A program made the translations under genes and the position numbers. Shown in pieces: positions 8,621-61,454 of a DNA stretch of 64,000 nt. The DNA lies in assembly GCF_040782645.1 (NCBI RefSeq), contig NZ_CP160403.1, forward strand, positions 1,612,001 through 1,676,000. Direction: 5' to 3'. The DNA comes from Streptomyces sp. HUAS ZL42. GTDB lineage: Bacteria > Actinomycetota > Actinomycetes > Streptomycetales > Streptomycetaceae. Position 1 is the stretch's first letter. Each line of letters starts with the position of its first letter. Under the pieces are notes generated by a model. It saw nothing but the letters and a program-made list of their open reading frames with translations, did no database searches and was not told the origin of the DNA.

Positions 8621-8810
8621 CCGCCCTCCCACCACCGGGAACACACGCAGGTGAGGCCCTAGACTTGAATACCGACATTTCACCCATATTCATTATCGCG
8701 AGTAACGCGCATCGCGCCCGACACACGCACATCCCCAAGATTCGGCCGCAGCCCCACGAAAGCCGCTCCGGCCTGGGCCCGATCATGAGAGCCCCGAGGA
8801 GGGATCGACC

Positions 8811-12742: not shown

Positions 12743-14103
12743 GATGACCTCGCGGTTGCCGGGACAAGCCAGCGCGACCGGCACGCCAGCAGGAAGACGG
12801 CGATCAGGCACTGGGCGGCCAGCCAGGCGATGCCGGCTCCGGTGACGCCGAACCGAGGCAGGAGCACGACGGTCAGCCCGAGCACCAGGCCACATGTCGC
12901 GATCTGCAGTCCGACCGCCCAGCGCAGCCGCCGCCGAGCCCGCGAAACGTCGATGGCCAGGCTCACCAGGAGGTTGGGCAGGGCGGACACCGCCAGCAGC
13001 CGCAGCAAGGTGGTGCCGTGGGCCGAGTACGACGCACCGAAGAGGGACAGGATCTGAGGGGCCGCGGCGGCCAGGACGGCGGTGACACCGGCCAGCATCA
13101 GACCCGAGTGGCGCAGGACGCGCAGGCCGTTGTCGACGAGTCGTTCGGGCCGGCGTACGGACTCCGTGATCAAGGACGTTCCCATGTTGAGGGCCAGCAG
13201 GTAGGGCACGTAGGCGATGCTCCACGCCAGCGAGTAATAGGCGCTCTGCTCCGCTCCCAAGGTGTCCAGCACGATCAGCGGGACCAGGGTGTACGCGGCC
13301 AGCCGGAACAGCGAGCCGAGCCAGTCGGTGGCGGCGTACCCCAGCATGCGCGGCGACGGTGGCGTTGCCGGGGTGTTCCGCTCGTGCTGCGGAATCCCCC
13401 TGCGCAGCAGGACCGTGTTGGCCACGACGAGGGCGATCAGCAGGGCGCCCGCCCACGAGATCAGGATCCCGGAGAACAGGGCCAAGGCGGCTCCGAGGGC
13501 GAGCAGCAGTATCTTCCCGCAAGCGAAGATCAGGTTCTCCGCGACGACCCATCCGGGACGGCCGACCGCGGTGAGCGCGCCGTCCTGCAGCACGAATATG
13601 GCGTATCCGGCAGTGGCCACCGCGAAGCAGCCGCCCGCGACGGGGGTCAGCAGGAAGTCGAGCCCGGGTGTGACCACCGGCACCAGGGCCAGGAACACGG
13701 CGGCGACGAGCAGGCTGAAGGACGTACTCACCGCGTAGCAGGTGAGGACCAGTCTGCGGGTGCGGCGTCCGGTGGTCGGCACGAATCGCACCAGGAAATC
13801 GTGGAGGTTGAGCTGGCCGATGCCCGTGAGCAGCATGGACGCCGAAAGCGCGGAGTAGCTCAGGCCCACCGTCCTCTCGTCGTACCAGTGGGTCGCGAAG
13901 AGCCAGAAGAGCGAGCCGAAGCACGAGTTGACCAGGGAACTGACCGCGAGCAGGTGTCCCGTGCGCAGCAGGCGTTCACCGGGCAGCACGACGGCGACAC
14001 CCGCCCGCAAAGAGGCCCCCAGGGAGCGTCGTTCCCTGCCCGCGGCACTCACCGCCGCCCCGGTGACCGAACGGGCGCCCACGCCTTCACACCTCTCGTC
14101 CAT
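12739..14103 (-). CDS. Polysaccharide flippase, Wzx/MOP type
   Basis: The 454-aa product is almost entirely membrane helices, about 12 to 14. A polar N-terminus of about 45 residues precedes the first helix (LAVSSLVNSCFGSLFWL). The pattern, with Arg-rich cytoplasmic loops and a YYSLAWSIAYVPYLLALNMG stretch, fits lipid-linked oligosaccharide flippases of the MOP superfamily. It should move a lipid-linked repeat unit across the membrane. ATG 14103 shares its A with the TGA of the upstream glycosyltransferase (TGATG, 14101-14105). No Wzy-type polymerase is obvious nearby apart from the GT-C protein at 16620. Confidence 0.85.
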   Translation of the reverse strand: MDERCEGVGARSVTGAAVSAAGRERRSLGASLRAGVAVVLPGERLLRTGHLLAVSSLVNSCFGSLFWLFATHWYDERTVGLSYSALSASMLLTGIGQLNLHDFLVRFVPTTGRRTRRLVLTCYAVSTSFSLLVAAVFLALVPVVTPGLDFLLTPVAGGCFAVATAGYAIFVLQDGALTAVGRPGWVVAENLIFACGKILLLALGAALALFSGILISWAGALLIALVVANTVLLRRGIPQHERNTPATPPSPRMLGYAATDWLGSLFRLAAYTLVPLIVLDTLGAEQSAYYSLAWSIAYVPYLLALNMGTSLITESVRRPERLVDNGLRVLRHSGLMLAGVTAVLAAAAPQILSLFGASYSAHGTTLLRLLAVSALPNLLVSLAIDVSRARRRLRWAVGLQIATCGLVLGLTVVLLPRFGVTGAGIAWLAAQCLIAVFLLACRSRWLVPATARSS

Positions 14104-15359
14104 CACCTTCTGCCGCGGTCGCCGGTGAGGCGTCCGCGGGCATAGCCGCAGGGCCCGTAGGCCATGCCCCGCATCTCCAGGAGAGTCAGGCGCCGGGACC
14201 AGCCGGCCTCCGGGTCGGCAAGCCGGCCGCGCGATCTGGTCACGACGTGGCGCACGCCGCGGGGCAGCCGGCACAGCAGGGCGGGCAGTTGGCGGGGATG
14301 GCGCACCAGGGCGCCGGTGAGGTAGGCGCCGAGACCGACGCCGTAGCCGAAGACCTGCGCGGCCACGGCGTCCTGCGTACGCCGGTGCCGGTGCCACACG
14401 ATGGCAGCGGGCTGGTAGACGAGGGAGTGGCCGGCGGTCAGGACCTCGAAGAAGGCGAGCAGGTCGTCGCCGCCGCGGGCCGGGGTGCCCGCGCCCGTCG
14501 CGGGGTCGAAGCCGCCCAGCGAGCGCAGTACGTCGGTGCGGAAGGCCATGTTGGCACCGGAGCCGAAACGCCCGGCCGCGAAGGGGAACAGTGGGTCGGC
14601 CGACGTGTCGGACAGCGACCAGGTGAGCACCGTGTACCCCTTGGCGAAGCCGCCGTGCCGCTCCACCGCGGCCTGGGCGGGGGTGTCCAGTTCGGCAGGC
14701 ACGATGAGTCCCGTGACGCAGCCGATCCGTGTGTCGGACGCGAACGTCTCGGCGAGGGCGGACAGCCACCCGGGGTCGACGAGTGTGTCGTCGTCCGTGA
14801 ACGCGACGACGGGGCCGCATGCTCGGGACAGTCCGCGGTTGTGGGCGCGCGCCAGTCCGGCGACAGGTTCGCGGAGATAGCGGACCCGTCCTTCGAAGGC
14901 ACCGCGGACCAGAGCTTCGGTCGCGCGGTCGGCCGGGGCGTTGTCGACCACGATGATCTCGAACTCGCGGTACGCGGACCGCAGGAGCGAATCCAGACAT
15001 CGGCACAGTTGCCGGGGACGGTCGCGCGTGGCCACGATCACGCTGATGAGGGGTGCGTCGGGGAGGGCAGGGCGTGGTTCGGCCCGGTCCGAGGCGCGGT
15101 GCCGGGCGAGGTTGTCCGCCAGTTCCACGTGGGCGGCACGGGCGACCGCCGACCACAGAGCTTCGGGTCCGGAGGTCTCCCCGGCACTGACCATGCCCAG
15201 TGGACGGCCGTGCAGTCGCACCAGGGCCCGTATCCTCCCTCGCGGTGTGACGGACCCCTGGTCCCCGGGCAGCCGGAACTCGCCCGGACGGGCGAGGTCC
15301 ACGTCGACGACACGTACCGGGGTACACACGGCGGCGGAGTGCACGGGAACGGGGTTCAC
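14103..15359 (-). CDS. Family 2 glycosyltransferase with extra N-terminal domain
   Basis: The 418-aa product has about 110 N-terminal residues of unknown fold before a GT-A domain that begins ISVIVATRDRPRQLCRCLDS. Key marks are GLARAHNRGLSRACGPVVAF, the DDD of FTDDDTLVDPGW, and GGDDLLAFFEVL. The GTG start at 15359 overlaps the stop of the preceding glycosyltransferase (GTGA, 15356-15359). Similar enzymes with an N-terminal extension occur in actinobacterial exopolysaccharide loci. The sugar donor cannot be inferred. Confidence 0.87.
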   Translation of the reverse strand: MNPVPVHSAAVCTPVRVVDVDLARPGEFRLPGDQGSVTPRGRIRALVRLHGRPLGMVSAGETSGPEALWSAVARAAHVELADNLARHRASDRAEPRPALPDAPLISVIVATRDRPRQLCRCLDSLLRSAYREFEIIVVDNAPADRATEALVRGAFEGRVRYLREPVAGLARAHNRGLSRACGPVVAFTDDDTLVDPGWLSALAETFASDTRIGCVTGLIVPAELDTPAQAAVERHGGFAKGYTVLTWSLSDTSADPLFPFAAGRFGSGANMAFRTDVLRSLGGFDPATGAGTPARGGDDLLAFFEVLTAGHSLVYQPAAIVWHRHRRTQDAVAAQVFGYGVGLGAYLTGALVRHPRQLPALLCRLPRGVRHVVTRSRGRLADPEAGWSRRLTLLEMRGMAYGPCGYARGRLTGDRGRR

Positions 15360-16096
15360 GATGCGTTCCGCTCGTTCCGGGTGGAGGACCGTGCACCGGG
15401 GCGTTCCGAGAGCAGGGTGCGCAGCACCCTGAGCCCGTCGGGTATGGCGTGGAGGTTGGAGTGCCCGCTGCGGCGGGGCAGTTCCAGGCTGGGCACCTCG
15501 GCGATGCGCAGGCCGGAGCGCAGGGCGTGCACGACCATCTCGGCCTCGATCTCGAATCCCACGGCATGCAGGTCGAGTTGGTCCAGGAAGCTGCGCCGGA
15601 AGGCACAGAAGCCGTAGCACAGGTCGGTCAGGGACGCGTGGTAGAGCCTGTTGGCGACGGCCAGCAGCGCATGGTTTCCCATCCGCCTGAAGCGGGTGAT
15701 GTCGAGTGAACCACCGCCCGCGATGAATCTCGAACCCTTGACGAAGTCGTAGCCGTTCTCGAGGAAGTGCAGGAAGTGAGTGATCTCCGCGGGCGACATG
15801 CTGCCGTCGGCGTCCAGCATCACCACGTAGTCCCCGGTGGCCGCGAGAAAGCCGGTGCGCAGCGCGTTTCCCTTTCCGGGACCGCTCTGCCGTACGTGGT
15901 GAACCGTCGGCAGGCAGTACCGGGCCATGGGGACGGTCGCGTCGACGGAGTCGGCGTCGACAAGGATGACCTCGTCGACGCATGCCGGGATCTGCTCGAA
16001 GACCCATGGGATGTTGCGCGCCTCATTGCGGGCCGGTACGACCAGGCTCACACTGGCGGGCGGCTTGCCGGTCTCGGCGATCGGGTCGCTGTACAT
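15356..16096 (-). CDS. Family 2 glycosyltransferase, DPM1-like
   Basis: The 246-aa product resembles soluble polyprenyl-phosphate hexose synthases: VSLVVPARNEARNIPWVF, DEVILVDADSVDAT, and the metal motif DAD in YVVMLDADGSMSP, followed by FVKGSRFIAGGGSLD. Such enzymes load a sugar on a polyprenyl phosphate for GT-C enzymes, and a GT-C like gene lies just upstream. ATG 16096 has a GGGAG site 10 nt upstream; the longer frame to 16147 runs through the promoter motif. It begins a new unit, because 119 bp holding the shared 17-bp motif separate it from the gene before. Confidence 0.88.
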   Translation of the reverse strand: MYSDPIAETGKPPASVSLVVPARNEARNIPWVFEQIPACVDEVILVDADSVDATVPMARYCLPTVHHVRQSGPGKGNALRTGFLAATGDYVVMLDADGSMSPAEITHFLHFLENGYDFVKGSRFIAGGGSLDITRFRRMGNHALLAVANRLYHASLTDLCYGFCAFRRSFLDQLDLHAVGFEIEAEMVVHALRSGLRIAEVPSLELPRRSGHSNLHAIPDGLRVLRTLLSERPGARSSTRNERNAS

Positions 16097-16121: not shown

Positions 16122-16138
16122 CATACACTTACGATGTA
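16122..16138 (-). promoter_or_regulatory. Shared 17-bp exopolysaccharide motif, site A
   Basis: On the minus strand the site reads TACATCGTAAGTGTATG, 25 nt before the start codon at 16096. It matches site B (50293-50309) at 15 of 17 positions and lies at nearly the same distance from a start codon. A TTGACG hexamer lies 31 nt upstream (16170-16175), the same spacing as at site C. Whether it is a promoter core, an operator or a leader element is not known. Confidence 0.65.
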
Positions 16139-16215
16139 AAAATACAACCTTTGTCCGATTTATTCGCTTCGTCAAGCGACCGGCTCGTTTCGGAGCCGGC
16201 CGCCCGCAGCGGCGA

Positions 16216-40815: not shown

Positions 40816-41726
<911 letters not shown>

Positions 41727-47931: not shown

Positions 47932-49428
<1,497 letters not shown>

Positions 49429-49453
49429 CTGCTCCTCAGAAGGAGGCACGTCC

Positions 49454-50239
49454 ATGGCGAAGACCGGCGACCGCGCACGCGCGACGACCGCATCGGCGCT
49501 CGACAACCTGCACTTCGCCCTGGACCGGGGCAGTCCGGTGCCCCTGTACTACCAGCTCGCGCAGCAACTCGAGGCGGCGATCGAGCACGGCGTCCTCGCA
49601 CCGGGCAACCTCCTCGGCAACGAGATCGACCTGTCGGTACGGCTGGGCCTGTCCAGGCCCACCGTCCGGCAGGCCATCCAGTCCCTGGTGGACAAGGGCC
49701 TGCTGGTCCGGCGACGCGGCGTCGGCACGCAGGTCGTCCACAGCCAGGTCAGACGCCCCCTCGAGCTGAGCAGTCTCTACGACGACCTGGAGACCGCCGG
49801 CCAGGGCCCGACCACGCAGGTGGTCCGCAACGAGGGCGTCCCGGCACCCGCCGACGTGGCCGCCGCCCTGGGCGTCGCGGAGGGCAGCGAGGTCACGCTC
49901 CTGGAGCGGCTCAGGTTCACCCACGGCGAGCCGGTGGCGCTGCTGTGCAACTACCTGCCCGCCAACCTGCTGAACCTCGACGACAGCAGGCTGGAGTCGA
50001 CGGGCCTGTACCGCATGCTGCGCTCCGCCGGCATCACCCTGCACAGCGCCCACCAGACAATCGGCGCCCGCTCCGCCACGGCGGAGGAGGCGGCTCGGCT
50101 GGACGAGGAGCCGGGCGCGGCGCTGCTGACCATGCAGCGGACGGCTTATGACGACACGGGGCGGGCGGTGGAGTACGGGACGCATATCTACCGGGCGTCT
50201 CGGTATGCGTTTGATTTTCAGTTGCTGGTGCGGCCCTGA
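49454..50239 (+). CDS. GntR-family regulator, HutC/UTRA type
   Basis: The 261-aa product has a winged helix (residues about 28-95, with YYQLAQQLEAAIEHGVL and LSRPTVRQAIQSLVDKG) and a UTRA ligand domain (VTLLERLRFTHGEPVAL ... LYRMLRSAGITLHSAHQTIGA). It is the last gene of the inositol operon, 25 bp after mmsA, as in many actinobacterial iol clusters. It most likely represses the operon and the importer until an inositol intermediate binds. Confidence 0.9.
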   Translation: MAKTGDRARATTASALDNLHFALDRGSPVPLYYQLAQQLEAAIEHGVLAPGNLLGNEIDLSVRLGLSRPTVRQAIQSLVDKGLLVRRRGVGTQVVHSQVRRPLELSSLYDDLETAGQGPTTQVVRNEGVPAPADVAAALGVAEGSEVTLLERLRFTHGEPVALLCNYLPANLLNLDDSRLESTGLYRMLRSAGITLHSAHQTIGARSATAEEAARLDEEPGAALLTMQRTAYDDTGRAVEYGTHIYRASRYAFDFQLLVRP

Positions 50240-50292
50240 CCCTTCCGAGGCTTGACCAACCAGGACAGGAGACCCATAGTGGTACGTATGTA

Positions 50293-50309
50293 TACATCGT
50301 AAGCGTACG
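50293..50309 (+). promoter_or_regulatory. Shared 17-bp exopolysaccharide motif, site B
   Basis: TACATCGTAAGCGTACG lies 26 nt before the galE start at 50336. It matches site A at 15 and site C at 13 of 17 positions. The surrounding GTACGTATGTATACATCG is very AT-rich for this genome. A TTGACC occurs 35 nt upstream, 4 nt farther than the TTGACG at the other two sites. Confidence 0.65.
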
Positions 50310-50335
50310 TCGTCCCGCCTGAGGGGCTCGGGCCT

Positions 50336-51394
50336 ATGAGCGCTCCATCCACAGTCCTGGTCACCGGTGGAGCCGGCTTCATCGGCAGCCACGCCTGTGT
50401 CGACCTGCTCGACCACGGCTACGAGGTCATCGTGGTCGACGACTACTCCAACAGCTCGCCGCAGGTCTTCGCCCGTGTGGAACGGATCGCCGGCCGCTTC
50501 GTCGGCGCCGTCTACGAGCTGGACATCCGTGACCGGCAGGCCCTGTCAGCCGTCTTCGACCGGCACACGGTAGACGCGGTCGTGCACTTCGCCGCCCTCA
50601 AGTCGGTGAGCGCTTCGACGAAGATGCCCGTCGAGTACTACGACACCAACGTCGGCGGCACGACCGCCCTGCTGCGAACCATGCACGAGCACGGAGTCCA
50701 CCGGCTCGTCTTCTCCTCGTCCTGCTCGCTCTACGGCGAGGCCGGCTCCGGGCCGCTCGACGAGTCCACCCCCGCGCGTCCCACCAATCCCTACGCTGCG
50801 TCCAAGTGGGCCTGCGAACAGATACTTGCCGACGTCTGCCACCGACGTCCCGAGTACTCCGTGCTGTGCCTGCGGTACTTCAACCCTGTCGGCGCCCACC
50901 CCAGCGGACTGCTCGGAGAGGACCCGCAGGGAACGCCCGAGAACCTCATGCCGTACCTGGCACAGGTGGCCGTCGGACGACGCAACCAGTTGCGCGTGTA
51001 CGGAAGCGACTACCCCACGCCCGACGGAACCGCGATCCGCGACTACATCCACGTCATGGACACCGTCGAGGCACACCGGGTCGCGCTCGACCGCCTGGCC
51101 GACACCTCGGGCATGCAGGTGTACAACCTCGGCCTCGGCCACGGCAGTTCCGTCCTCGACGTCGTCACCGCGTTCTCCAGGGTCTGCGGCAGGGAAATAC
51201 CGTACGAACTCGCGCCGCGCCGCCCCGGCGACGTGAGCGAACTCGTCGCCGACGCCTCCGCCGTGACGCGCGCCTGGGGCTGGCGCCCTCTGCGCGACCT
51301 CGACGACATGTGCCGGGACGCATGGCGGTTCCAACTGCACAATCCCCATGGGTACGCGGGGTCTCCCCGGCGGCCCAGGACGAAGGAGAGCTGA
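50336..51394 (+). CDS. galE: UDP-glucose 4-epimerase
   Basis: The 352-aa product is an extended SDR with cofactor motif VLVTGGAGFIGSHACVDLL, catalytic Ser in SSSCSLYGEAG and Tyr-x3-Lys in NPYAASKWACEQ. LRYFNPVGAHPSG and IRDYIHVMDTVEAH are characteristic of GalE, which interconverts UDP-glucose and UDP-galactose. It opens locus B on the plus strand. The shared 17-bp motif lies 26 nt upstream. The GGDEF-EAL gene begins 6 bp after its stop, so precursor supply and c-di-GMP turnover are likely co-transcribed. Confidence 0.93.
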   Translation: MSAPSTVLVTGGAGFIGSHACVDLLDHGYEVIVVDDYSNSSPQVFARVERIAGRFVGAVYELDIRDRQALSAVFDRHTVDAVVHFAALKSVSASTKMPVEYYDTNVGGTTALLRTMHEHGVHRLVFSSSCSLYGEAGSGPLDESTPARPTNPYAASKWACEQILADVCHRRPEYSVLCLRYFNPVGAHPSGLLGEDPQGTPENLMPYLAQVAVGRRNQLRVYGSDYPTPDGTAIRDYIHVMDTVEAHRVALDRLADTSGMQVYNLGLGHGSSVLDVVTAFSRVCGREIPYELAPRRPGDVSELVADASAVTRAWGWRPLRDLDDMCRDAWRFQLHNPHGYAGSPRRPRTKES

Positions 51395-51400
51395 CCGCCG

Positions 51401-54400
51401 GTGCCAAGATGCAGCCCGACAGTGCCGTGCCTACCATTGCAGAAGGCCCAGGTCGAGGCGTACTTCGCGGCCCGGCCTCCTCCGACCCGAGGAGGCGCTT
51501 TGCGATTGCTGCTGGCCCACCGGCTGATGGCTGTCTTCTTCACTCTGTCCGCGGTCGTCACCTCTCTCTACATGACCGTTCCGAGCCTGCGCACGCCGAT
51601 GTGGGCCCTCATAGGCATGGGAGGCGCCGCAGCCATCCTCACCGGTGTCCACATCAACCGTCCGGCGCACCGATGGCCCTGGCTGGTACTCGCCGCCGGG
51701 CTGCTGGCCCTCACCGCCGGTGACACCTACTCCCACGTGCAGGAGCAGTACTTCCAGGCCTCTCCGTTCCCCTCACCGGCGGACGCGTGCTATCTCGCCG
51801 TGTACCCGCTCCTCGCGGCAGGGCTCTTCGGCCTCGTCCGGTACCGCCGGGTGGACCGTGACCTGCCCAGCCTGCTGGACGCGATGATCGTCACCGCGGG
51901 GCTCGCGGTGCCGGTCTGGGTCTACCTGATACTGCCGCTCACCAGGCAGGAGAGCCTGACCTGGGAGCAGCGCGCGATCAGCATCGCCTATCCACTGGGC
52001 GACATCGTGATACTCGCGCTGCTGGTCCGGCTGCTCGCCCACAGCCCCCTCTCCGGCCGGGAACGCTCCGTACAGCTGCTCGCCCTGGGCACCCTCGCAC
52101 TGCTCGGTTTCGACATCGCCTACGGAATCGTGCAGCTCGACGGGGCGTGGCAGGCCGGCTTGCCTGACCTCGGCTGGATCGTCTTCTTCACGGCCTGGGG
52201 GCTGGCCGGGCTCCACCCGTCCATGACGGAACTGACCCGTCCGGAACCCCGGCCGCAATCCGCCCTTCCGCCTTGGCACCGGCTGCCCCTGCTCGCCGCC
52301 GCCACGCTGATCGCACCGGCGATCCTGCTCTCGGAGGGACGGGTCGGCACGGTCCGGGACGCAACGGCGCTGGCGGCCTTCTCCGGCCTGTTGTTCGTGC
52401 TGGTGATCCTGCGGCTCGCGGGCATGATCGTGGCACACCGCGAGGCCGTGACGCGTGAGCAGACATTGCGCAGGGCAACCGCCGCACTCGTCGCGGCCAC
52501 AGGAGCCCAGGAGATCGAACAGTCCTGCGCCGGTGCGGTCACGGCGTTGTTCGGACCGAAGGCCCGGCACGCGACCATGCTGCTTTCGGCCCAGCAGGCC
52601 CAGCAGCTGTACGCGCTTCCGGCAAAGACGCCCGTCGGCCCGGAGACCGCGGGCACTGCGGGCGGGCCTCACAGAGAGCCGGCCGCCGCCGTACTCCCCG
52701 GCACCCTCCTCGTCACCGTTGCCGAGCTCGGGCCGGACATCGCCGACCGGCTGGACCACCTGCCGACCGCCCTGGTGTGCCCCATGGTCCAGCCCGACCG
52801 CCCGACCGGCAGCGAGCTTCCGGGTGTGCTGCTGGCCGCCGGACCCGAGCGACAGCTCACCGAGATGCGCGGCACACTGGAGATCCTGGCCTCGTACGCG
52901 GGGCTGGCGGCTGAACGTGTTGAGCTCCGGCAGGAGATCATCCGGAAGGAGAGCGAGGCCTACTTCCGCACCCTGGTGCACAACGCCTCGGACGTGATCC
53001 TCATCCTCAACGACGACACGACCGTGCGCTACGCCAGTCCGTCCGCGGAAGCCGTCTTCGGCAGCACCGTGATGACGGGTACGGCACTGCGGGACCTGGT
53101 GGATCCCCGGGATCGCGACCGGGTACACCGCACTCTGACGGTCCTGCGCAGCACCAAGCAGAAGGAGGCCCACGAGTACTGGTGGGTGCTCAAGGACGGC
53201 GACCGCATCGAAGTGGAGGTGCGGTGCCGTGACCTTCGGCAGGACAGGACCGTCGGCGGGCTGGTGATCACCCTCCGGGATGTGACCGAACAACGTCAAC
53301 TGGAGCACGAACTCACCCAGCGGGCCTTCCATGATTCGCTGACCGGTCTGCCCAACCGGACACTGCTGCTGGAGCGGACCGAGCGCGCGCTGCTGCGCGG
53401 CCGCCGCGAGGCGACTCTCACCTGTCTGCTCTTCATCGATCTTGACGACTTCAAAGTCGTGAACGACACGCTGGGCCATTCGGTCGGCGATCAGCTTCTC
53501 TCCGCTGTGGGAGAGCGAATGGCGAGGACGCTGCGCCGCACCGACACCGCGGCGCGTCTGGGCGGTGACGAGTTCGCCGTGCTGATGGAGGGTGCGAGAC
53601 AGCCCGTCGATGCCGAACTTCTGGCGGCACAGGTGATCCAGAGCCTCAACCGGCCCTTCCAGCTCTCCGAGGACTCGGTGAACGTCTCCGCCAGCGTGGG
53701 CGTGGCCACGGCGTGGGACAGCGCGGACCCCGAAGAGCTGCTGGCCCTCGCAGATCTGGCCCTGTACGCGGCCAAGACGGCGGGAAAGCGCCAGTGGCGC
53801 CGCTTCCAGCCGGAGCTGCGCGACAACATGGCGGAGCGGCACGATCTTCGAGCGCGGCTTGACCGGGCGATCGCCGAGGAGGAGTTCAGCCTGCTCTACC
53901 AACCGGTGGTGGACATCACCGTGGGCGAGATCGTCGGCTTCGAGGCACTGGCCCGCTGGCCGCACACCCGACGGGGTCTGGTCCCACCGCTGCAGTTCAT
54001 CGGGCTCGCCGAGGAGACCGGGCAGATCACGCCGCTGGGCGCCTGGGTGCTGCGGAACGCCGCGGCCGACATCGCCCGGCTGCGGGATCGGACCCCACGG
54101 CCCGTACCGCTGTACGTCAGCGTCAACGTCTCCGCACGCCAGTGGCGGGACACGGGCTTCCTGAACGAGGTGCGCAGGGCCCTCGACACCTCCGGCCTCG
54201 ATCCGGGCTCACTGCAGCTGGAGCTGACGGAGTCGGTGCTCATGCGGCGGGACGACCACATCGACGCGCTCCTTCGGACGCTCAAGGACCTCGGCGTGCG
54301 CATCGCGGTCGACGACTTCGGCACCGGGTTCTCCTCGCTGCGCTATCTGCGGGAATTCCCCATAGACGTACTCAAGATCGACAAGACGTTCATCGACGAC

Positions 54401-54637
54401 ATCCCGGAGGACCCCCGGCAGGTCGCACTCGTCGAGGGAATCGTCCACCTCGCGGACACGCTCGACCTTCAGGTGATCGCCGAGGGCATCGAGGAACCGG
54501 CACAGCGCGAGATGCTCGCCGCCATGGGCTGCCGGTTCGGCCAGGGATACCTGTTCGCCCCGCCGATGAGCCTGGAGGAGAGCGAGATCGTCCTGCGCCG
54601 GCACGACGAAGCAGTTCGCCACAACGAAGCAGGGTGA
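51401..54637 (+). CDS. Membrane PAS-GGDEF-EAL protein, c-di-GMP synthase/phosphodiesterase
   Basis: The product of about 1078 aa has ten predicted helices (residues about 34-345), a linker, a PAS domain (about 525-645), GGDEF (about 650-810) and EAL (about 820-1070). The cyclase site ARLGGDEF is intact, and an RRTD inhibitory site lies five residues before it. The EAL site is also complete: FEALARW, NVSARQ, ELTES, DDFGTGFSSL, KIDKTF, EGIE and QGYLF. So both making and breaking c-di-GMP are possible. The layout recalls RmdB-type proteins of Streptomyces. It follows galE by 6 bp and likely controls this polysaccharide or development locally. Confidence 0.9.
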   Translation: MPRCSPTVPCLPLQKAQVEAYFAARPPPTRGGALRLLLAHRLMAVFFTLSAVVTSLYMTVPSLRTPMWALIGMGGAAAILTGVHINRPAHRWPWLVLAAGLLALTAGDTYSHVQEQYFQASPFPSPADACYLAVYPLLAAGLFGLVRYRRVDRDLPSLLDAMIVTAGLAVPVWVYLILPLTRQESLTWEQRAISIAYPLGDIVILALLVRLLAHSPLSGRERSVQLLALGTLALLGFDIAYGIVQLDGAWQAGLPDLGWIVFFTAWGLAGLHPSMTELTRPEPRPQSALPPWHRLPLLAAATLIAPAILLSEGRVGTVRDATALAAFSGLLFVLVILRLAGMIVAHREAVTREQTLRRATAALVAATGAQEIEQSCAGAVTALFGPKARHATMLLSAQQAQQLYALPAKTPVGPETAGTAGGPHREPAAAVLPGTLLVTVAELGPDIADRLDHLPTALVCPMVQPDRPTGSELPGVLLAAGPERQLTEMRGTLEILASYAGLAAERVELRQEIIRKESEAYFRTLVHNASDVILILNDDTTVRYASPSAEAVFGSTVMTGTALRDLVDPRDRDRVHRTLTVLRSTKQKEAHEYWWVLKDGDRIEVEVRCRDLRQDRTVGGLVITLRDVTEQRQLEHELTQRAFHDSLTGLPNRTLLLERTERALLRGRREATLTCLLFIDLDDFKVVNDTLGHSVGDQLLSAVGERMARTLRRTDTAARLGGDEFAVLMEGARQPVDAELLAAQVIQSLNRPFQLSEDSVNVSASVGVATAWDSADPEELLALADLALYAAKTAGKRQWRRFQPELRDNMAERHDLRARLDRAIAEEEFSLLYQPVVDITVGEIVGFEALARWPHTRRGLVPPLQFIGLAEETGQITPLGAWVLRNAAADIARLRDRTPRPVPLYVSVNVSARQWRDTGFLNEVRRALDTSGLDPGSLQLELTESVLMRRDDHIDALLRTLKDLGVRIAVDDFGTGFSSLRYLREFPIDVLKIDKTFIDDIPEDPRQVALVEGIVHLADTLDLQVIAEGIEEPAQREMLAAMGCRFGQGYLFAPPMSLEESEIVLRRHDEAVRHNEAG

Positions 54638-54638
54638 C

Positions 54639-56507
54639 TCAGGCGGGGTGGCAACGCGCCGCAGGCGGAGAACCGGCCCACCCTTCGGACCGGTCGCGCC
54701 CTTCGGACCGGTCGCGCTCGGACGGTGCTGCCGACAGAGCGAACGCCGTCTCCACCAGTGCGATGTGACTGAACGCCTGCGGCGCGTTGCCCAGTTGGCG
54801 TCCGGCATCCGGATCCCACTGCTCCGACAGCAGCCCGACGTCGTTGCGGACGGCGAGGACCCGCTCGAAGACTTCACGGGCGTGCGCGCCGTGGCCGGTC
54901 TCGGCGAGGGCGTCGGCGTACCACAGGGTGCACGCCACGAACGCGCCTTCCCGGCCGTGCATGCCGTCGACACCGTGGGCCCCACTGTTCGGCGGGTACC
55001 GGCGTACGAACCCGCCATGGTCGAGCCGCCGCATCTCGCCAATGGTGCACAGCACCCTCGGGTCCCGTGCGGGCAGGAAGCCGAGCCTGGGCATCAGCAG
55101 GGCTGAGGCGTCCAGGTCGGCCGAACCGTAGGACTGGACGAAGGACCGCTGCTCGGCGTCCCAGCCCTCCCGCAGGACCTGGCGATGCACCCCGTCCCGC
55201 ACGGCCCGCCACTCGGCCGAGGATCCGTTGCGGCCCAGCAGCTCCGCCATGCGCAGGGCACGGTCGGCGGCCACCCACACCATGACCTTGGAGTGGACGA
55301 ACTGCCGTCGGGGCCCACGCACCTGCCACAACCCCTGATCGGGTTCGCGCCAGTGCCGTTGCAGGAAACCCATCATCGCCTCGACCAGGTGCCACACATG
55401 GGCGGGCATGGGGATGCCTGCCTGCAGGGAATGGAACAGCGCGTCCAGGACTTCGCCGTACACATCCAGCTGGAAGTGACCGACCGCGGAGTTCCCGAAC
55501 CGCACCGGCCGCGAGTCCTCGTAGCCGGGCAGCCAGGGGGCCTCGATCTCCGGCAGCAGCCGCTGTCCGCCGAGGCCGTACACGGTCTGAAGATCGGCCG
55601 GGTCACCCGCTATGGCCCGCACCAGCCAGTCCAGCCAGGCCGACGCCTCGTCCCGGTAGCCGCTGCGCAGCAGGCAGGACAGGGTCAGGGTGGAGTCGCG
55701 CAGCCAGCAGTACCGGTAGTCCCAGTTGCGTTCGCCGCCGATGCACGCGGGCAGCGAGGTGGTCGGTGCGGCGACGATGCCGCCGGTGGGCGCGAAGGTG
55801 AGCGCCTTCAGTGTGATCAGCGAGCGCACCACCGCGTCCCGCCACGGCCCCTGATAGCGGCACTCGCCCGCCCAGCGCCGCCAGAAGTCGGAGGTCTCCT
55901 TGAGCATCGTTTCCGCCGGAACACCCATCGGCGCGGGCGGCCCGGGGCGGTGCGAGGGCGCCCACACCAGTGTGAGGGCGACCCGCCGGCCGGCCGGGAC
56001 CGTGAAGTCGAGGACGGTGGCGCCCTCCCTGCCCTGGGCGCGCACGGGGCCGTCCGCAGCCAGCCACACGGAGTCGGGACCGGCCACCGCGACGGTGCAG
56101 TCGTCGGTGACCTGGACCCACGGCACCACACGGCCCTGGTGGAAGCGCAGGCGCAGTTCGCTGCGCATGGGCACGGCACCCGACAGCCCCTCGACCAGCC
56201 TGACCATGCAGGGCAGTTCGGCGCGCGGCGGCATGAAGTCGGTGACCCGTACCGCTCCCGACGCGGTCTCCCACACGGTGTCCAGGACCAGCGTGTCGGG
56301 CCGGTAGGCGCGGCGGGCACACGTACCGGGACCAGCTGTCGGAGCGACCCGCCAGAAGCCGTTGTCCTGCGTGCCCAGGAGCGCCGCCAGGCATGCCTCC
56401 GAGTCGAAGCGGGGCAGGCACAGCCAGTCGACCGACCCGCTCCGGCCCACCATGGCGGCGGTTTCCAGGTCACTGAGAAGGGCGTAGTCCTCGATGGGTG
56501 CGCTCAT
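54639..56507 (-). CDS. GH15-family protein with altered catalytic acid
   Basis: The 622-aa product has the full bacterial GH15 fold: SDLETAAMVGRSGSVDWLCL, NWDYRYCWLRDSTLTLSCLL and a GLLSEQWDP motif with the expected general base. Where the 21.2 kb paralogue has [11 protein letters not shown], this one has PDQGLWQVRGP, so the Glu expected to be the general acid is Gln (codon 55323-55325). It may be inactive, a binding protein, or use another acid. It is tightly convergent with the GGDEF-EAL gene (1 bp apart) and follows the rmlA-like gene on the same strand. ATG 56507 has GGAGAC upstream. Confidence 0.85.
   Translation of the reverse strand: MSAPIEDYALLSDLETAAMVGRSGSVDWLCLPRFDSEACLAALLGTQDNGFWRVAPTAGPGTCARRAYRPDTLVLDTVWETASGAVRVTDFMPPRAELPCMVRLVEGLSGAVPMRSELRLRFHQGRVVPWVQVTDDCTVAVAGPDSVWLAADGPVRAQGREGATVLDFTVPAGRRVALTLVWAPSHRPGPPAPMGVPAETMLKETSDFWRRWAGECRYQGPWRDAVVRSLITLKALTFAPTGGIVAAPTTSLPACIGGERNWDYRYCWLRDSTLTLSCLLRSGYRDEASAWLDWLVRAIAGDPADLQTVYGLGGQRLLPEIEAPWLPGYEDSRPVRFGNSAVGHFQLDVYGEVLDALFHSLQAGIPMPAHVWHLVEAMMGFLQRHWREPDQGLWQVRGPRRQFVHSKVMVWVAADRALRMAELLGRNGSSAEWRAVRDGVHRQVLREGWDAEQRSFVQSYGSADLDASALLMPRLGFLPARDPRVLCTIGEMRRLDHGGFVRRYPPNSGAHGVDGMHGREGAFVACTLWYADALAETGHGAHAREVFERVLAVRNDVGLLSEQWDPDAGRQLGNAPQAFSHIALVETAFALSAAPSERDRSEGRDRSEGWAGSPPAARCHPA
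54681..54716. repeat. 18-bp tandem duplication in GH15 gene 2
   Basis: CCCTTCGGACCGGTCGCG occurs twice in direct succession near the 3' end of the gene. It encodes a repeated Arg-Asp-Arg-Ser-Glu-Gly in the C-terminal tail. Confidence 0.85.
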
Positions 56508-56550
56508 GATCGGAGTCTCCGTCACCACGCCGGCGGAATTCGGGTGGTGG

Positions 56551-57618
56551 TCATGACGGGATCTGCACCTTGCTGTGGTCGCCGAGCACCAGCCGGTGCA
56601 CGGCGGGGGTACGGGGCGCCGGGGTCACCTGGACGTTGCGGCCGATCAGGGACACCTCGATCCGGCGCATCCCGACGATGGTCGCCCTCCGCAGCACGAT
56701 CGAGTACTCGATCTCGCTCTCCTCGATCAGGCAGTCCTCGGCGATCGAGGTGAACGGCCCGACGTAGGAGTCGGCGATCACACTTCCGGAACCGATGACG
56801 GCCGGTCCGACGACACGGCTGGCGAAGACCTTCGCACCGTCCTCGACGCCGACCCTCCCGATGATCTCGCTGGCCTCGTCGACGCTGCCGTCGATCCGCG
56901 GTTGCAGGGTCTCCAGGACCGAGCGGTTCACCTCGAGCATGTCGGCGACGTTCCCGGTGTCCTTCCAGTAGCCCGAGATCGTCGTGGCGCGCACGTCGCG
57001 ATCCTGGTCGAGTAGCCACTGGAGGGCGTCGGTGATCTCCAGCTCGCCGCGCCGGGACGGCAGTACGGCCCGTACGGCCTCGTGCACGAGGGGGGTGAAG
57101 AGGTAGACCCCGACCAGCGCCAGGTCGCTCTTCGGGTGCTGTGGCTTCTCCTCCAGGCCCATCACCCGCCCCGCCCCGTCCAGTTCGGCGACACCGAACG
57201 ACGCCGGCTCGGGCACGTGAGTCAGCAGGATGCGGGCGTCGGGCCGATCGCGGCGGAAGTCGTCGACGACGCCGGAGATGCCGCCGACGATGAAGTTGTC
57301 GCCCAGGTACATCACGAAGTCGTCGTCGCCCAGAAAGTCGCGGGCGATGAGCACGGCGTGCGCGAGCCCGAGCGGTGCCTCCTGCGGGAGGTAGGTCACG
57401 TCGAGGCCGAACCGGGAGCCGTCGCCGACGGCTGCGCGGATCTCCGGCGCGGTGTCGCCGACGACGATGCCGGTCTCGGTCACTCCGGCAGCGGCGATCG
57501 CCTCCAGGCCGTAGAACAGCACCGGTTTGTTGGCCACCGGCACGAGTTGCTTCGCGGAGGTGTGGGTGATGGGGCGGAGGCGGGTTCCGGCTCCGCCGCA
57601 CAGGACGAGTGCTTTCAT
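56551..57618 (-). CDS. rmlA: Glucose-1-phosphate thymidylyltransferase, long form
   Basis: The 355-aa product has the nucleotidyltransferase signature LCGGAGTRLRPITHTSAKQL, then YLGDNFIVGGISG and EEKPQHPKSDLALVGVYLF. After about residue 240 it continues into left-handed beta-helix hexapeptide repeats (VVGPAVIGSGSVIADSYVGP), as in StrD-type enzymes. It should make dTDP-glucose, though UDP is possible for the long form. No rmlB, C or D is in the window. ATG 57618 overlaps the stop of the UXS-like gene (57615-57618). Confidence 0.87.
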   Translation of the reverse strand: MKALVLCGGAGTRLRPITHTSAKQLVPVANKPVLFYGLEAIAAAGVTETGIVVGDTAPEIRAAVGDGSRFGLDVTYLPQEAPLGLAHAVLIARDFLGDDDFVMYLGDNFIVGGISGVVDDFRRDRPDARILLTHVPEPASFGVAELDGAGRVMGLEEKPQHPKSDLALVGVYLFTPLVHEAVRAVLPSRRGELEITDALQWLLDQDRDVRATTISGYWKDTGNVADMLEVNRSVLETLQPRIDGSVDEASEIIGRVGVEDGAKVFASRVVGPAVIGSGSVIADSYVGPFTSIAEDCLIEESEIEYSIVLRRATIVGMRRIEVSLIGRNVQVTPAPRTPAVHRLVLGDHSKVQIPS

Positions 57619-58592
57619 GATGAACGTCCCACTGGTGAGTGCTCCGGGGGGCGTGCAGCCGTGTCCGGATGCGCGGCGAACCAGGCAATGGTGTGGCGAA
57701 GCCCCTCTTCCAGCGGCACGGTCGGGTTCCAGCCGAGTCCTTCGAGGGCACGCGTGATGACGGGGCGCCGGCGTACGGGGTCGTCGACGGGCAGGGGCAG
57801 GAAGCGCAGTCCGCCTTCCGATCCGGTGATCAGCAGCACCATTTCGGCAAGCTCCCGCACCGTCCGCTCGGTGGGGTTGCCGAGGTTGACCGGGCCCGGA
57901 AGGTCCGCGTCGACCATGGCCAGCAGGCCGCGGATCAGATCGTCCACATAACACAGGCTCCGGGTCTGGCTGCCGTCTCCGAACACGGTGAGAGCTTCCC
58001 CGTCCAGCGCCTGGTTGACGAACGTGGAGACCACCCGGCCGTCGTCGGCGCGCATCCGGGGGCCGTACGTGTTGAAGATCCGCACGATGCCGGCGTCGAC
58101 GCCCTGACTGCGCCGGTAGGCCATGGTGAGCGCCTCGGCGAAGCGTTTGGCCTCGTCGTAGACACTTCGGGGCCCGACCGGGTTGACGTGTCCCCAGTAG
58201 TCCTCGTCCTGCGGGTGCACCGCGGGGTCGCCGTACACCTCGCTGGTCGACGCGAGGACGAAACGGGCCTGGTGCCGGACCGCCAGTCGCAGCAGGTTCT
58301 CGGTGCCGCGGCTGCCGGCGGCCAGTGTCTCCAGTGGATGACGGCCGTAGTCGAACGGGGACGCCGGGCTCGCGAGGTGCACGATGGCGTCGACGTCGCC
58401 GTCGACCCTGAGCCGCTCCGTGACGTCGGCCGGGGTGAGCACGAATCCGGACTCGTTGAGCAGGTCGGCCACGTTGGATGCCCGGCCCGACGAGAAGTTG
58501 TCCAGGCAGCAGACGCGGTCGCCCCTGCGCAGCAGCGCTTCGCACAGATGCGATCCCAGGAAGCCGCTCCCGCCGGACACCACGACACGCAT
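57615..58592 (-). CDS. UDP-glucuronate decarboxylase-like (UDP-xylose synthase)
   Basis: The 325-aa product is an extended SDR with VVVSGGSGFLGSHLCEALL, then STSEVYGDPAVHPQDEDYWG, catalytic Tyr-x3-Lys in SVYDEAKRFAEAL and IFNTYGPRMRADDGRVVSTF. The PQ-x-E-x-YWG-x-VNP-x-G-x-RS-x-YDE pattern is that of UDP-xylose synthases. It would turn UDP-glucuronate, made by the gene just upstream, into UDP-xylose or the 4-keto-pentose. It overlaps rmlA and follows the dehydrogenase gene by 17 bp. Confidence 0.87.
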   Translation of the reverse strand: MRVVVSGGSGFLGSHLCEALLRRGDRVCCLDNFSSGRASNVADLLNESGFVLTPADVTERLRVDGDVDAIVHLASPASPFDYGRHPLETLAAGSRGTENLLRLAVRHQARFVLASTSEVYGDPAVHPQDEDYWGHVNPVGPRSVYDEAKRFAEALTMAYRRSQGVDAGIVRIFNTYGPRMRADDGRVVSTFVNQALDGEALTVFGDGSQTRSLCYVDDLIRGLLAMVDADLPGPVNLGNPTERTVRELAEMVLLITGSEGGLRFLPLPVDDPVRRRPVITRALEGLGWNPTVPLEEGLRHTIAWFAAHPDTAARPPEHSPVGRSS

Positions 58593-58609
58593 GAGCTCTC
58601 TCCTGCCGG

Positions 58610-59935
58610 TCAGCCGAGCCGTGGTCGACCCGGGGCGCACAGCGTCCAGCCCGCGGCGCTCCAGACCACCGGGTCGAGGATGTTGCGCGCGTCGACGATG
58701 ACCGGGGTGCGCACCACCGTGGCGAGGGCCGCGGGGTCGAGCTCCCGGTACTGGGGCCATTCGGTCAGGTGCAGGACGACATCGGCCTGCTCGCACGCCT
58801 TGGTCACGTCGAGGGCGAACTGCAGTGCGGGGTACGCCGCGCGGGCGTTGTCGACCGCCTCGGGGTCGTGCACGCGGACCTGGGCTCCGCGGCGCCGGAT
58901 CGCGTCCGCGACGGCGAGCGCCGGGGAGTCCCGTACGTCGTCGCTGCGCGGCTTGAAGGCGGCGCCCAGGACCGCGACGTTCCGCTGCGCGAAGTCGCCG
59001 CCCACGACCCGTTGGGCGAGGGCGACGGTGCGCTCGCGCTGGCGGGTGTTGATCTCGTCGACCTGGCGCAGGAACGCCACCGACTCGCCCTGCCCGAGTT
59101 CCTCGGCCCGTGCGGCGAAGGCCCGTATGTCCTTGGGCAGGCAGCTGCCGCCGAAGCCGAGCCCGGGTGCGAGGAACCGGGGCCCGATGCGGGAGTCCGC
59201 GCCCATCGCCCGGGCCAGCGTGAGCACGTCGGCGCCCGTCGCGTCGCAGATCTCCGCCATGGCGTTGATGAAGGAGATCTTGGTCGCGAGGAAGGAGTTC
59301 GAGGCCACTTTGACGAGTTCGGCGGTGGCGGGGTCGGTGACGAAGACCGGTATGTCGGCCGCCAGGAGGGGCGCATAGAGGGCACGCAGCCGCGCTTCGG
59401 CAGGCACCGAGCGGACGCCCACCACGATGCGCTCGGGCCGCAGAGTGTCCTGGACCGCGCAGCCCTCCCGCAGGAACTCCGGGTTCCAGGCGACATCGGC
59501 AGTGGGATCGACGGCCCGCAGCCGCCGGGCCAGTCGGTCGGCGGTACCGACGGGGACGGTTGACTTCCCGACAACCAGGACGCGGTCGTGTCCGCTGTCG
59601 TGCAGATGCGCGGCCAGGCCGTCCACGGCGGCCTCGACGTACCTCAGATCGGAGGCACCCGAACCGGGCTGCTGGGGGGTGCCGACACAGACGAAGTGCG
59701 TGCCGGCGAACCGGGCGGCCTCGGCCAGTGAGGTGGTGAAGCGCAGCCGCCCCGCGTCCACCATCCGCTTGAGCATGCCGGACAGGCCGGGCTCGTAGAA
59801 CGGGGGTCTGCCGGCGCCGAGCGCACCGATCCGCTCCGCGTCGATGTCCACGCCGAGCACCTCGTGCCCGATCTCCGCCATGCAGGCGGCGTGGACCGCT
59901 CCTACGTATCCGGTACCGATGACTGTCAGGCGCAT
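58610..59935 (-). CDS. UDP-glucose 6-dehydrogenase
   Basis: The 441-aa product has the NAD motif LTVIGTGYVGAVHAACMAEIG, the linker helix VKVASNSFLATKISFINAMA and the catalytic Cys in GFGGSCLPKDIRAF (about residue 260). It oxidises UDP-glucose to UDP-glucuronate, feeding the decarboxylase next to it. ATG 59935 has a GGAG site; the longer frame to 60028 is unlikely. It follows the GT4 gene after 89 bp that contain half of a 22-bp direct repeat. Confidence 0.92.
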   Translation of the reverse strand: MRLTVIGTGYVGAVHAACMAEIGHEVLGVDIDAERIGALGAGRPPFYEPGLSGMLKRMVDAGRLRFTTSLAEAARFAGTHFVCVGTPQQPGSGASDLRYVEAAVDGLAAHLHDSGHDRVLVVGKSTVPVGTADRLARRLRAVDPTADVAWNPEFLREGCAVQDTLRPERIVVGVRSVPAEARLRALYAPLLAADIPVFVTDPATAELVKVASNSFLATKISFINAMAEICDATGADVLTLARAMGADSRIGPRFLAPGLGFGGSCLPKDIRAFAARAEELGQGESVAFLRQVDEINTRQRERTVALAQRVVGGDFAQRNVAVLGAAFKPRSDDVRDSPALAVADAIRRRGAQVRVHDPEAVDNARAAYPALQFALDVTKACEQADVVLHLTEWPQYRELDPAALATVVRTPVIVDARNILDPVVWSAAGWTLCAPGRPRLG

Positions 59936-59981
59936 GGTGGTCTCCGTGGTGGGCGTGTCGTCGGAGGCGTGTCCCCCGGTG

Positions 59982-60036
59982 GACGCTCGGTTCAGGGACG
60001 GGGAGCGGGGCTCCGACGCTCGGTTCACGGACCGGG
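59982..60036. repeat. 22-bp imperfect direct repeat at the GT4 gene end
   Basis: GACGCTCGGTTCAGGGACGGGG (59982-60003, first 20 of 22 shown as GACGCTCGGTTCAGGGACGG) recurs at 60015-60036 with two changes. The offset is 33 bp and the second copy spans the stop codon of the GT4 gene, so the 3' end has been duplicated. Confidence 0.7.
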
Positions 60037-61329
60037 GGCGGTTCCCCGGGTCCGGCTCGTGCCGGTTGCCACCCGGTCATGGAGGGGCGGCAGGCCGAGC
60101 AGCTCGCGGTAGCAGTCGTCGACGGCCGCGCACATGGCTTGGGGCGCGAAGGACGTACGGACCCGCCGGCGCCCCTGCCGCCCCATCTCGGCGGCCTCCC
60201 CCGGGTGGTCGAGCAGCCAGGAGACCGCCCGCGCCTCGCCCTCGGGATCGGCCGGCGGTACGAGCAGGCCCGTGGCGCCGTGCTCGACCAGATCGGGTAC
60301 ACCGTTGACAGCCGTGGCGACGACTGGCCGAGCAGCGGCCAGCGCCTCGGTGAGCGCGCGGCCGAGGCCCTCGTAGAGCGACGTCATCACGAAGACGTCC
60401 AGCCCTGCCACCAGCCAGGACGCGTCCGGCCGGTATCCGGTGAAGGTCACGTCGACGTCCAGTTCCGCGGCGAGTCGCCGGACCTCGTCCTCCAGCGGTC
60501 CGTCGCCGATCACGACGAACGCGGTGCCGGGGTGATCGGCACGGATCGCGGCCGCCATGCGGACGAAGTCCCAAGGGGCCTTCTGGTAGTCGATACGGCC
60601 GACGGTGCCGATGAGGGTCTTTTCGCGAGGCACACCCAGTACATGGCGCGCGACGGGGTCGAACCCCTCGGGGATGTGCCCCAGGTCCACGGCCGACGGC
60701 ACCACGTGGACCAGACCCGGTGGGGCCAGGCGCTCGTCGACCGCCTCTCGGGCGACGCGCGGCGCGACAGCGAGGAAGCGGTGGGTGAAGCGCCGCGTCG
60801 CCCGCTCCAGCCAGCGGTACGCCGTGCGCCGACGGCGCGACATGTACGGGTGGAAGCTGAAGCCGTGGAAGGTGTGCACCACCACGGGCGTACGGCACAG
60901 CCGCGCGGCGGCCCGCCCGAGGAACCCCCCCTTCCCCGAGTGGGTGTGCACGACGGTGAACCGCTCACGGCGGACCAGGCGCACCAGCCTCCACAGCACC
61001 AGGAGGTCCACGGGGGTCAGGGTGTGCCGGAACCCCGGTATCTCGGCCGTGCGCAGTCCGGCGGCGCGCGCCGGTTCCCAGAGGTCACCCCCCGGGACCC
61101 CGGCGATCCACACCTCGTACCGCTCGGGGTCCATTCCCTCTGCCGACAGCAGCGTGTTGCCACCGGCTCCCGCCTCGAAGCGGGTGATGACGTGAAGGAC
61201 CTTGATACGGGGCAGCACCGGCGGTGTCGGCAGCGTCGCCGCCGGTGCCACCTGTGGGGGCGTCGCGGGCCAGCCCACGGCTTCGCCGTCCGACCGCCCC
61301 GAGCCGGTCACGAGCGTCCCGTTCTGCAT
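60025..61329 (-). CDS. Family 4 glycosyltransferase
   Basis: The 434-aa product has a GT-B fold. After a disordered N-terminus of about 40 residues comes KVLHVITRFEAGAGGNTLL, then VVHTHSGKGGFLGRAAARL, and the donor domain IGTVGRIDYQKAPWDFVRMA, with the E-x7-E type motif in SLYEGLGRALTEALAAARPV. It transfers an activated hexose to a lipid-linked or nascent glycan with retention. The shared 17-bp motif (site C) lies 26 nt before its start. It begins the transcript that includes the nucleotide-sugar genes. Confidence 0.92.
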   Translation of the reverse strand: MQNGTLVTGSGRSDGEAVGWPATPPQVAPAATLPTPPVLPRIKVLHVITRFEAGAGGNTLLSAEGMDPERYEVWIAGVPGGDLWEPARAAGLRTAEIPGFRHTLTPVDLLVLWRLVRLVRRERFTVVHTHSGKGGFLGRAAARLCRTPVVVHTFHGFSFHPYMSRRRRTAYRWLERATRRFTHRFLAVAPRVAREAVDERLAPPGLVHVVPSAVDLGHIPEGFDPVARHVLGVPREKTLIGTVGRIDYQKAPWDFVRMAAAIRADHPGTAFVVIGDGPLEDEVRRLAAELDVDVTFTGYRPDASWLVAGLDVFVMTSLYEGLGRALTEALAAARPVVATAVNGVPDLVEHGATGLLVPPADPEGEARAVSWLLDHPGEAAEMGRQGRRRVRTSFAPQAMCAAVDDCYRELLGLPPLHDRVATGTSRTRGTAPGP

Positions 61330-61355: not shown

Positions 61356-61372
61356 CGTATATTTACGCTGTA
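61356..61372 (-). promoter_or_regulatory. Shared 17-bp exopolysaccharide motif, site C
   Basis: On the minus strand the site reads TACAGCGTAAATATACG, 26 nt before the GT4 start codon at 61329. It matches site B at 13 of 17 positions. TTGACG lies 31 nt upstream (61404-61409), the same offset as at site A. It lies in the divergent region shared with the methyltransferase gene. Confidence 0.6.
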
Positions 61373-61454
61373 TACGTACATCATTACTCTATCGGGCACC
61401 ATGCGTCAATTCATCAGAAGATGGACACCTGAGACGATCGCCGGAGGAACGCGC

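Follow-up and report, generated by a model that had tools for sequence, protein, structure and literature searches.

A 17-bp motif recurs before three polysaccharide genes in the window, the stretch of 64,000 nucleotides analysed here (positions 1612001-1676000 of a single 9,866,886-base contig). The first-pass annotation had taken it as the mark of an undescribed regulon or promoter class. We asked which of these it is, which genes belong to it and which protein might read it. To our knowledge, the control of exopolysaccharide genes in Streptomyces has been little studied.

Three motif copies are parts of a 25-bp palindrome

All three copies were found at the places first described: site B (TACATCGTAAGCGTACG, 50293-50309, + strand) before galE, site A (TACATCGTAAGTGTATG, 16138-16122, − strand) before a DPM1-like GT2 gene, and site C (TACAGCGTAAATATACG, 61372-61356, − strand) before a GT4 gene. 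In the window, the combined 17-mer pattern was matched perfectly at these three places and nowhere else. With up to three mismatches it had 4 matches there against 0.20 expected from shuffles, so that chance was far exceeded. When the 9.87-Mb genome was scanned, three perfect matches were found, all in the window, and with up to two mismatches there were 7 places, compared with 4 for the reversed pattern. The added places were sites at 1679455, 1688356 and 6482811 and a match at 4105913, which was dropped at only 8.6 bits. The 2-mismatch places 3476038, 6720204, 7974757 and 8240251 were dropped as well, with scores of 5.8 to 16.6 bits.

In the alignment, the sites matched on both strands with an offset of 8 bases, which exposed a palindrome of 25 bp, YGTAYRTWTACR-N-YGTAWAYRTACR. 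The 17-mer before galE is the right part of it. This is the symmetrised consensus of 106 distinct sites of at least 28 bits, in which TWTAC and GTAWA are nearly fixed. The half-sites of the consensus are nearly palindromic themselves, and in several loci an extra half-site lies 13 bases away. Taken as a lead only, these two traits could mean that two dimers bind each site.

The palindrome changes how two early observations are read. The motif had been described as always lying on the coding strand; because it is one half of a palindrome that occurs on both strands, this orientation means nothing by itself. A nearly constant distance to the start codon (25-26 nt) was confirmed for sites A, B and C, as the 25-bp site ends 25 nt before the start codon at A and 26 nt before it at B and C. 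It failed for the other five genomic sites: for these, the distance to the gene lying on the side of the TTGAC box is 17, 18, 61, 63 and 111 nt. Strand and start-codon spacing were thus rejected as a defining trait, since they are valid for three sites only.

Eight sites in the genome and the genes behind them

The 23-bp core of the palindrome, with up to three mismatches, occurs at 8 places in the 9.87-Mb genome, and the reversed pattern at 0. Six of them lie inside one 60-kb polysaccharide region that extends beyond the window end, and two are remote. Downstream of seven of the eight lie genes with Pfam domains of a polysaccharide type (glycosyltransferase, epimerase or aminotransferase), and the eighth, site G, precedes a homologue of the cluster gene g087.

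Operator B occupies 50285..50309 on the + strand (beginning at genome position 1662285), where the full 25-bp palindrome reads CGTATGTATACATCGTAAGCGTACG. It precedes the gene of a galE-like UDP-sugar epimerase (50336..51394, +, PF01370). The second gene after the operator follows galE at a gap of 111 nt and encodes a PAS-GGDEF-EAL protein (51506..54637, +). This protein holds GGDEF, EAL and DDFGTG motifs, and we take it to be a c-di-GMP enzyme.

Operator A (16122..16146, −, beginning at genome position 1628122) precedes genes at 10938..16096 on the − strand. The DPM1-like GT2 gene (15356-16096) is the first, and after a gap of 134 nt it is followed on the same strand by GT2, flippase-like, GT2 and polysaccharide deacetylase genes. 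Operator C (61356..61380, −, beginning at genome position 1673356) precedes genes at 54639..61329 on the − strand, namely GT4 (60025-61329), UDP-glucose dehydrogenase, epimerase and nucleotidyltransferase genes. A GH15 gene (54639-56507, −) lies 43 nt after the nucleotidyltransferase end of this group. The window has a second GH15-type gene at 21186-23057, which is so named from its similar start only.

Three further regional sites lie beyond the window. Site D' (beginning at genome position 1677228) precedes a GT4 gene and the genes onward from it; site D (1679455) lies between a GT2 gene and a divergent Wzy-like gene; and site E (1688356) separates a TetR-family gene from a divergent DegT aminotransferase gene that is followed by LCP and Wzz genes. 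Of the remote sites, F (beginning at 6482811) has a GT2 gene 17 nt away, and G (beginning at 8161265) has a gene without a Pfam match 63 nt away. The latter is 60% identical to g087, which likewise has no Pfam match, and both are read here, by sequence alone, as probable glycosyltransferases.

Among the components of a Wzx/Wzy type, Wzy_C, Wzz and LytR_cpsA_psr domains were found. The flippase-like protein g037, which had no Pfam match, and the initiating sugar transferase g080 were named from their sequences alone.

Catabolic genes had been described as free of the motif, and the matrix scan indeed gave no site in the catabolic run at about 24-50 kb of the window. In 164 kb, the best score of the first matrix outside the sites and their overlapping shadows was 5.3 bits. 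The gene of a GntR-UTRA regulator (49454..50239, +) lies beside operator B. In the same part of the window, at 40816-41726, a sugar ABC-transporter ATPase is encoded by two overlapping reading frames where the relative L138 shows one gene; it is possibly a split or frameshifted gene.

The TetR-family gene at site E

The TetR-family gene lies at genome positions 1688450-1689193, 12.4 kb beyond the window end, and is divergent from the DegT gene. Site E is a palindrome between the two, and TetR-family regulators typically have a palindromic operator beside their own gene, which is often divergent. The protein has an N-terminal helix-turn-helix domain (TetR_N, PF00440, 36.8 bits against a cut-off of 24) and a C-terminal ligand/dimer domain (TetR_C_1, PF02909, 45.4 bits against 21). 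Of the 78 orthologues 33 were aligned, and all of these share the same DNA-recognition segment, VEAMALYRY. The model of the S. canus orthologue (locus L103) has a TetR fold that is almost all helical (pLDDT 86.9). In a fold search it matched ActR, SimR, PamR2 and TetR at 20-27% identity; these are general TetR relatives only, and the search gave no hint of a ligand.

Sites at the TetR loci of relatives

We fetched the 78 best loci with relatives of the TetR gene from a search that kept the top 80 of 213 matches; 77 loci have Streptomyces in the title. The matrix was built from our own sites A, B, C, D', D and F, and the TetR-adjacent site E was excluded. A site of at least 22 bits was found in a range from 400 nt before to 60 nt after the start of the TetR match in 62 of the 78 loci, and one of at least 30 bits near that start in 51. 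The remaining 16 loci had no site of at least 22 bits near the TetR start. Somewhere in the locus, a site of at least 22 bits was held by 72 of the 78, and six (L110, L117, L118, L130, L132 and L169) had none, with weak sites of 17.1-18.5 bits in L110, L118 and L132.

The matrix was then applied to 91 sequences (2.05 Mb), made up of the 78 loci, 11 other genome regions and two stretches of our own genome; these regions were chosen for holding the TetR gene or a site, and their genes were called by a simple script. We found 155 sites of at least 22 bits, fewer of them independent, since six are training sites and some regions are duplicates (e.g., G063 and L114). None lay inside a called gene, though 88.6% of the sequence is coding. 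The reversed matrix gave 0 matches of at least 22 bits in the same 2.05 Mb.

A matrix was built in the reverse direction from 57 distinct foreign TetR-adjacent sites. With it our own eight sites ranked first, at 24.9 bits or more, and the next match scored 13.1 bits; the maximum of the reversed control was 9.8 bits. The 224 kb scanned in this test consisted of stretches known to hold sites, with their flanks, plus one stretch without a site (L013). Sites before TetR genes 58-60% alike score 20.6-27.2 bits, and no site of comparable score was found at TetR genes 53% alike.

Sites are kept before the relatives' orthologues of the DegT, galE, DPM1-like GT2, GT4, GH15 and flippase-like genes. Together with a genome scan that was not scattered, this conservation supports the regulon reading. 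A site-borne galE gene is followed by a GGDEF-EAL gene on the same strand in 10 of 20 cases, our own and one duplicate locus included.

Other loci have different genes. Seven (L162, L164, L166, L167, L170, L173 and L174) show a compact form in which a gene of about 610 codons lies divergent to TetR and is followed by galE, UGD, an epimerase and a further gene; in 6 of the 7 a GGDEF-EAL gene reaches the locus end. In L166, the one that was scanned for domains, the gene of about 610 codons has GT2 domains and the further gene a beta-helix domain. The compact form may be a synthase-dependent polysaccharide system. In L159 the gene divergent from TetR (7615-9717) has Agd3-like deacetylase and CBM87 domains, and L156 has a counterpart of it, by length and place only. 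To judge from these compact operons and Agd3-like variants, the switch seems to persist as the polysaccharide genes vary.

Two TetR paralogues were observed in L102, in L146 with L127, and in the genomes G001, G030, G095, G114 and G139. In G001, G030, G114 and G139 a palindrome match adjoins both of them.

The palindrome often follows a predicted TTGAC-type promoter

Before galE, a promoter scan independently found TTGACC (50252..50257, +) and CATAGT (50275..50280, +) as −35 and −10 boxes with a spacer of 17 nt, the −10 box ending 4 nt before operator B; it was the 1 match in 1.4 kb, compared with 0.1 expected. By eye, we read TTGACG (16175-16170) and AAAGGT (16152-16147) on the − strand at operator A, and TTGACG (61409-61404) and TAATGA (61386-61381) on the − strand at operator C. 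At the sites of our genome the TTGAC box precedes the dyad centre by 37-45 nt (the value for site G was read by eye), and this distance is more nearly constant than that to the start codon. The galE promoter is a mild outlier, with TTGAC 45 nt before the dyad rather than about 40.

The same spacing was sought in 244 site-gene pairs, with identical contexts counted once, from −80 to +60 nt of the dyad centre. TTGAC was found 125 times, 105 times at 37-42 nt before the centre and 60 times at exactly 40. When the TetR side is left out, 105 of 167 pairs have TTGAC at 37-42 nt. The fixed spacing was found for DegT in 20 of 20 pairs, DPM1-GT2 in 15 of 16, galE in 14 of 18, PGT in 7 of 9, flippase-like in 3 of 3, GT4a in 3 of 5, GT4b in 4 of 8 and FADox in 2 of 7, and for genes without a counterpart here in 28 of 44. 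It was found in none of the 77 pairs on the TetR side, the 7 of Wzz and the 4 of AKR. In several loci, sites adjoin relatives of the GH15 gene at 54639-56507, and TTGAC has the fixed spacing in 4 of 13 GH15 pairs. Autoregulation of the TetR gene and the control of some targets are therefore less sure.

In the 105 pairs, the positions 23-28 nt past the first T most often read C, A, A, A, G and T, which form a weak −10 hexamer. The A at its second place (93/105) and the T at its sixth (88/105) are most fixed, and the hexamer is often CAAAGT rather than TANNNT. The palindrome begins 28 nt after the first T of TTGAC in 60 of the 105 pairs and 25-30 nt after it in all 105, a range that is partly a product of the window used. 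With TTGAC about 40 nt before the dyad, a bound operator would cover the expected start point of transcription.

This geometry bears on the role of the TetR protein. Some TetR-family proteins activate transcription, and 62 of the 167 pairs not facing TetR are without TTGAC at the usual place. The protein could thus be an activator, or another protein could chiefly control the regulon, with TetR as one binder of several. We consider this unlikely, because the palindrome starts 25-30 nt after the first T in the 105 TTGAC pairs, and an operator placed just after the −10 hexamer is typical for repression.

Co-occurrence of the palindrome and the TetR gene

We examined a first sample of 150 genomes of the genus for the palindrome (up to three mismatches) and for the TetR gene (E-value of 1 × 10−50 or better, a cut set after inspecting the table). 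The TetR search scored the best 18 candidates per genome in this sample and the best 28 in the second. The palindrome was present in 25 of the 28 genomes with the TetR gene and in 12 of the 122 without it (P = 2 × 10−16; because the genomes are related, this and the other P-values overstate the evidence). The reversed control was present in 8 of the 150 genomes, 6 of them among the 122 without TetR. In the second sample (99 genomes, up to two mismatches) the palindrome was found in 13 of 16 genomes with TetR and 3 of 83 without, and the reversed control in 0 of 99. Among the 87 genomes new to this sample, the counts were 11 of 14 and 3 of 73 (P = 4 × 10−9); the three exceptions are G158, G214 and G230.

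The exceptions were looked at one by one. A fuller scoring of candidates in the 12 TetR-less palindrome genomes gave no TetR gene at 1 × 10−50. Among the matches listed, which cover all of the 12 but G031 and G034, nine genomes have 3-mismatch matches only. G099 has palindrome matches with 0 and 1 mismatch and is TetR-less at the cut. G099 and G230, assemblies of 1020 and 910 contigs, have good sites and no close TetR gene; in G017 a piece of the TetR gene lies at a contig end with the site close by; and in G158 the site adjoins a more distant TetR gene. The one-contig genome G214 has a perfect palindrome match and no intact TetR gene (G214:C1:7775227-7776222, L219). Beside its site lie pieces of galE and a C-terminal piece of a TetR-like gene, 44% identical to our own, so to judge from these pieces the locus is possibly a relic of a lost system.

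The GntR-UTRA regulator encoded upstream of galE was considered as the binder, with the other copies of the palindrome as its further targets. Its gene adjoins operator B here and galE in several relatives, and some GntR-family operators also contain short palindromes. For GntR orthologues at an E-value of 1 × 10−120 or better, the palindrome was present in 17 of the 52 genomes that have one and in 20 of the other 98 (P = 0.07), and for GntR relatives at 1 × 10−80, which 134 of the 150 genomes have, in 35 of 134 and 2 of 16 (P = 0.19). Among TetR-less genomes, however, a GntR orthologue added nothing clear (5/38 and 7/84, P = 0.30). TetR predicted the palindrome both where the orthologue is present (12/14 with TetR against 5/38 without, P = 2 × 10−6) and where it is absent (13/14 against 7/84, P = 2 × 10−10). 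In our genome the catabolic run that ends with the GntR gene had no site, neither upstream of this gene nor at any other point. Co-occurrence thus does not favour GntR as the binder, and we regard this explanation as very improbable.

The promoter class of the first-pass annotation would be one read by an alternative sigma factor. The fixed spacing to TTGAC, the frequent CAAAGT in place of TANNNT and the position near start codons in three cases agree with it. However, the element, a palindrome of 25 bp, begins only where the expected −10 hexamer ends or close to that point, and both boxes lie upstream of the motif in the 105 pairs and at galE, so the motif is not itself at −35 or −10. The palindrome is present on the TetR side without a TTGAC box as well, and it tracks the TetR gene. 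Because the motif comes after a TTGAC-N17-hexamer promoter, an operator fits better than a promoter class, which we judge extremely unlikely. A leader RNA element (a riboswitch or similar) instead of a protein operator can be practically dismissed, as there are 0 Rfam 15 matches in window positions 49000-52000 at E-values up to 1 and sites also lie between divergent genes beside TetR, where one palindrome would serve two directions, even though the site falls inside the likely 5' leader or borders on it.

A proposed TetR regulon for exopolysaccharides

We conclude that the motif is very probably part of the operator of the TetR-family repressor encoded 12.4 kb past the window, which would block the promoters of a split exopolysaccharide system. 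Computation gave the sites with their palindromic form and conservation, the spacing to the promoter and the tie to the TetR gene. From these we infer binding, repression, autoregulation and release by a ligand.

In the proposed mechanism, the TetR protein would bind the 25-bp palindrome, which begins beside the −10 hexamer in promoters of the TTGAC type and extends over the expected start of transcription; the bound protein would block initiation. It is predicted to control eight promoters, six in the split Wzx/Wzy-like exopolysaccharide region and two at remote genes. The regional six would serve glycosyltransferases, sugar-nucleotide enzymes, DegT with LCP and Wzz and possibly the Wzy-like gene; the remote targets would be the GT2 gene and the homologue of the cluster gene. 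The galE unit under this control would also carry the GGDEF-EAL (c-di-GMP) protein. Some ligand would presumably release TetR from the operator.

A wider and rather doubtful possibility is that TetR is a portable master switch for different Streptomyces exopolysaccharides. It would then govern the split Wzx/Wzy-like form here, and in other species the compact GT2-galE-UGD-epimerase-beta-helix-GGDEF/EAL form or the Agd3-like deacetylase form. With a c-di-GMP enzyme also under its control, it might close a feedback loop in which c-di-GMP or a polysaccharide precursor is the ligand.

The analysis provides a candidate regulator, an operator sequence and eight target sites in one genome. Scanning for the operator offers a way to find polysaccharide genes in other species. 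In addition, the synthesis of a sugar polymer and a c-di-GMP enzyme are brought together in a single probable transcription unit. The loss of the single TetR gene might switch silent polysaccharides on.

Comparison with known systems

Repressors, operators and regulons of the sort proposed here are known. In the open-licence literature, as far as titles and the starts of abstracts tell, we found no earlier description of this TetR regulator, its operator or its regulon. The Ebosin (ste) cluster of Streptomyces sp. 139 is likewise an exopolysaccharide gene cluster of Streptomyces, compared here by its description only; the starts of the abstracts on it mention no TetR operator or regulon.

ActR of S. 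coelicolor, likewise a Streptomyces TetR-family repressor, is the best sequence match of the TetR protein among solved structures (E-value 6 × 10−13) and is among the top fold matches. Aligned by fold, it is only 22-26% alike to the TetR orthologue. ActR controls exporter genes for actinorhodin export. According to the titles of its structures it binds actinorhodin, whereas the predicted targets here are polysaccharide genes.

QacR-type operators are long palindromes bound by two dimers. The length of the palindrome and the near-palindromic half-sites resemble them, and this likeness is a lead only.

SimR and TetR(B/D) have a palindromic operator between divergent genes, and the fold search gave the TetR fold as common to both and to the protein described here. 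Unlike in these two systems, the operator here is repeated at eight places of the genome.
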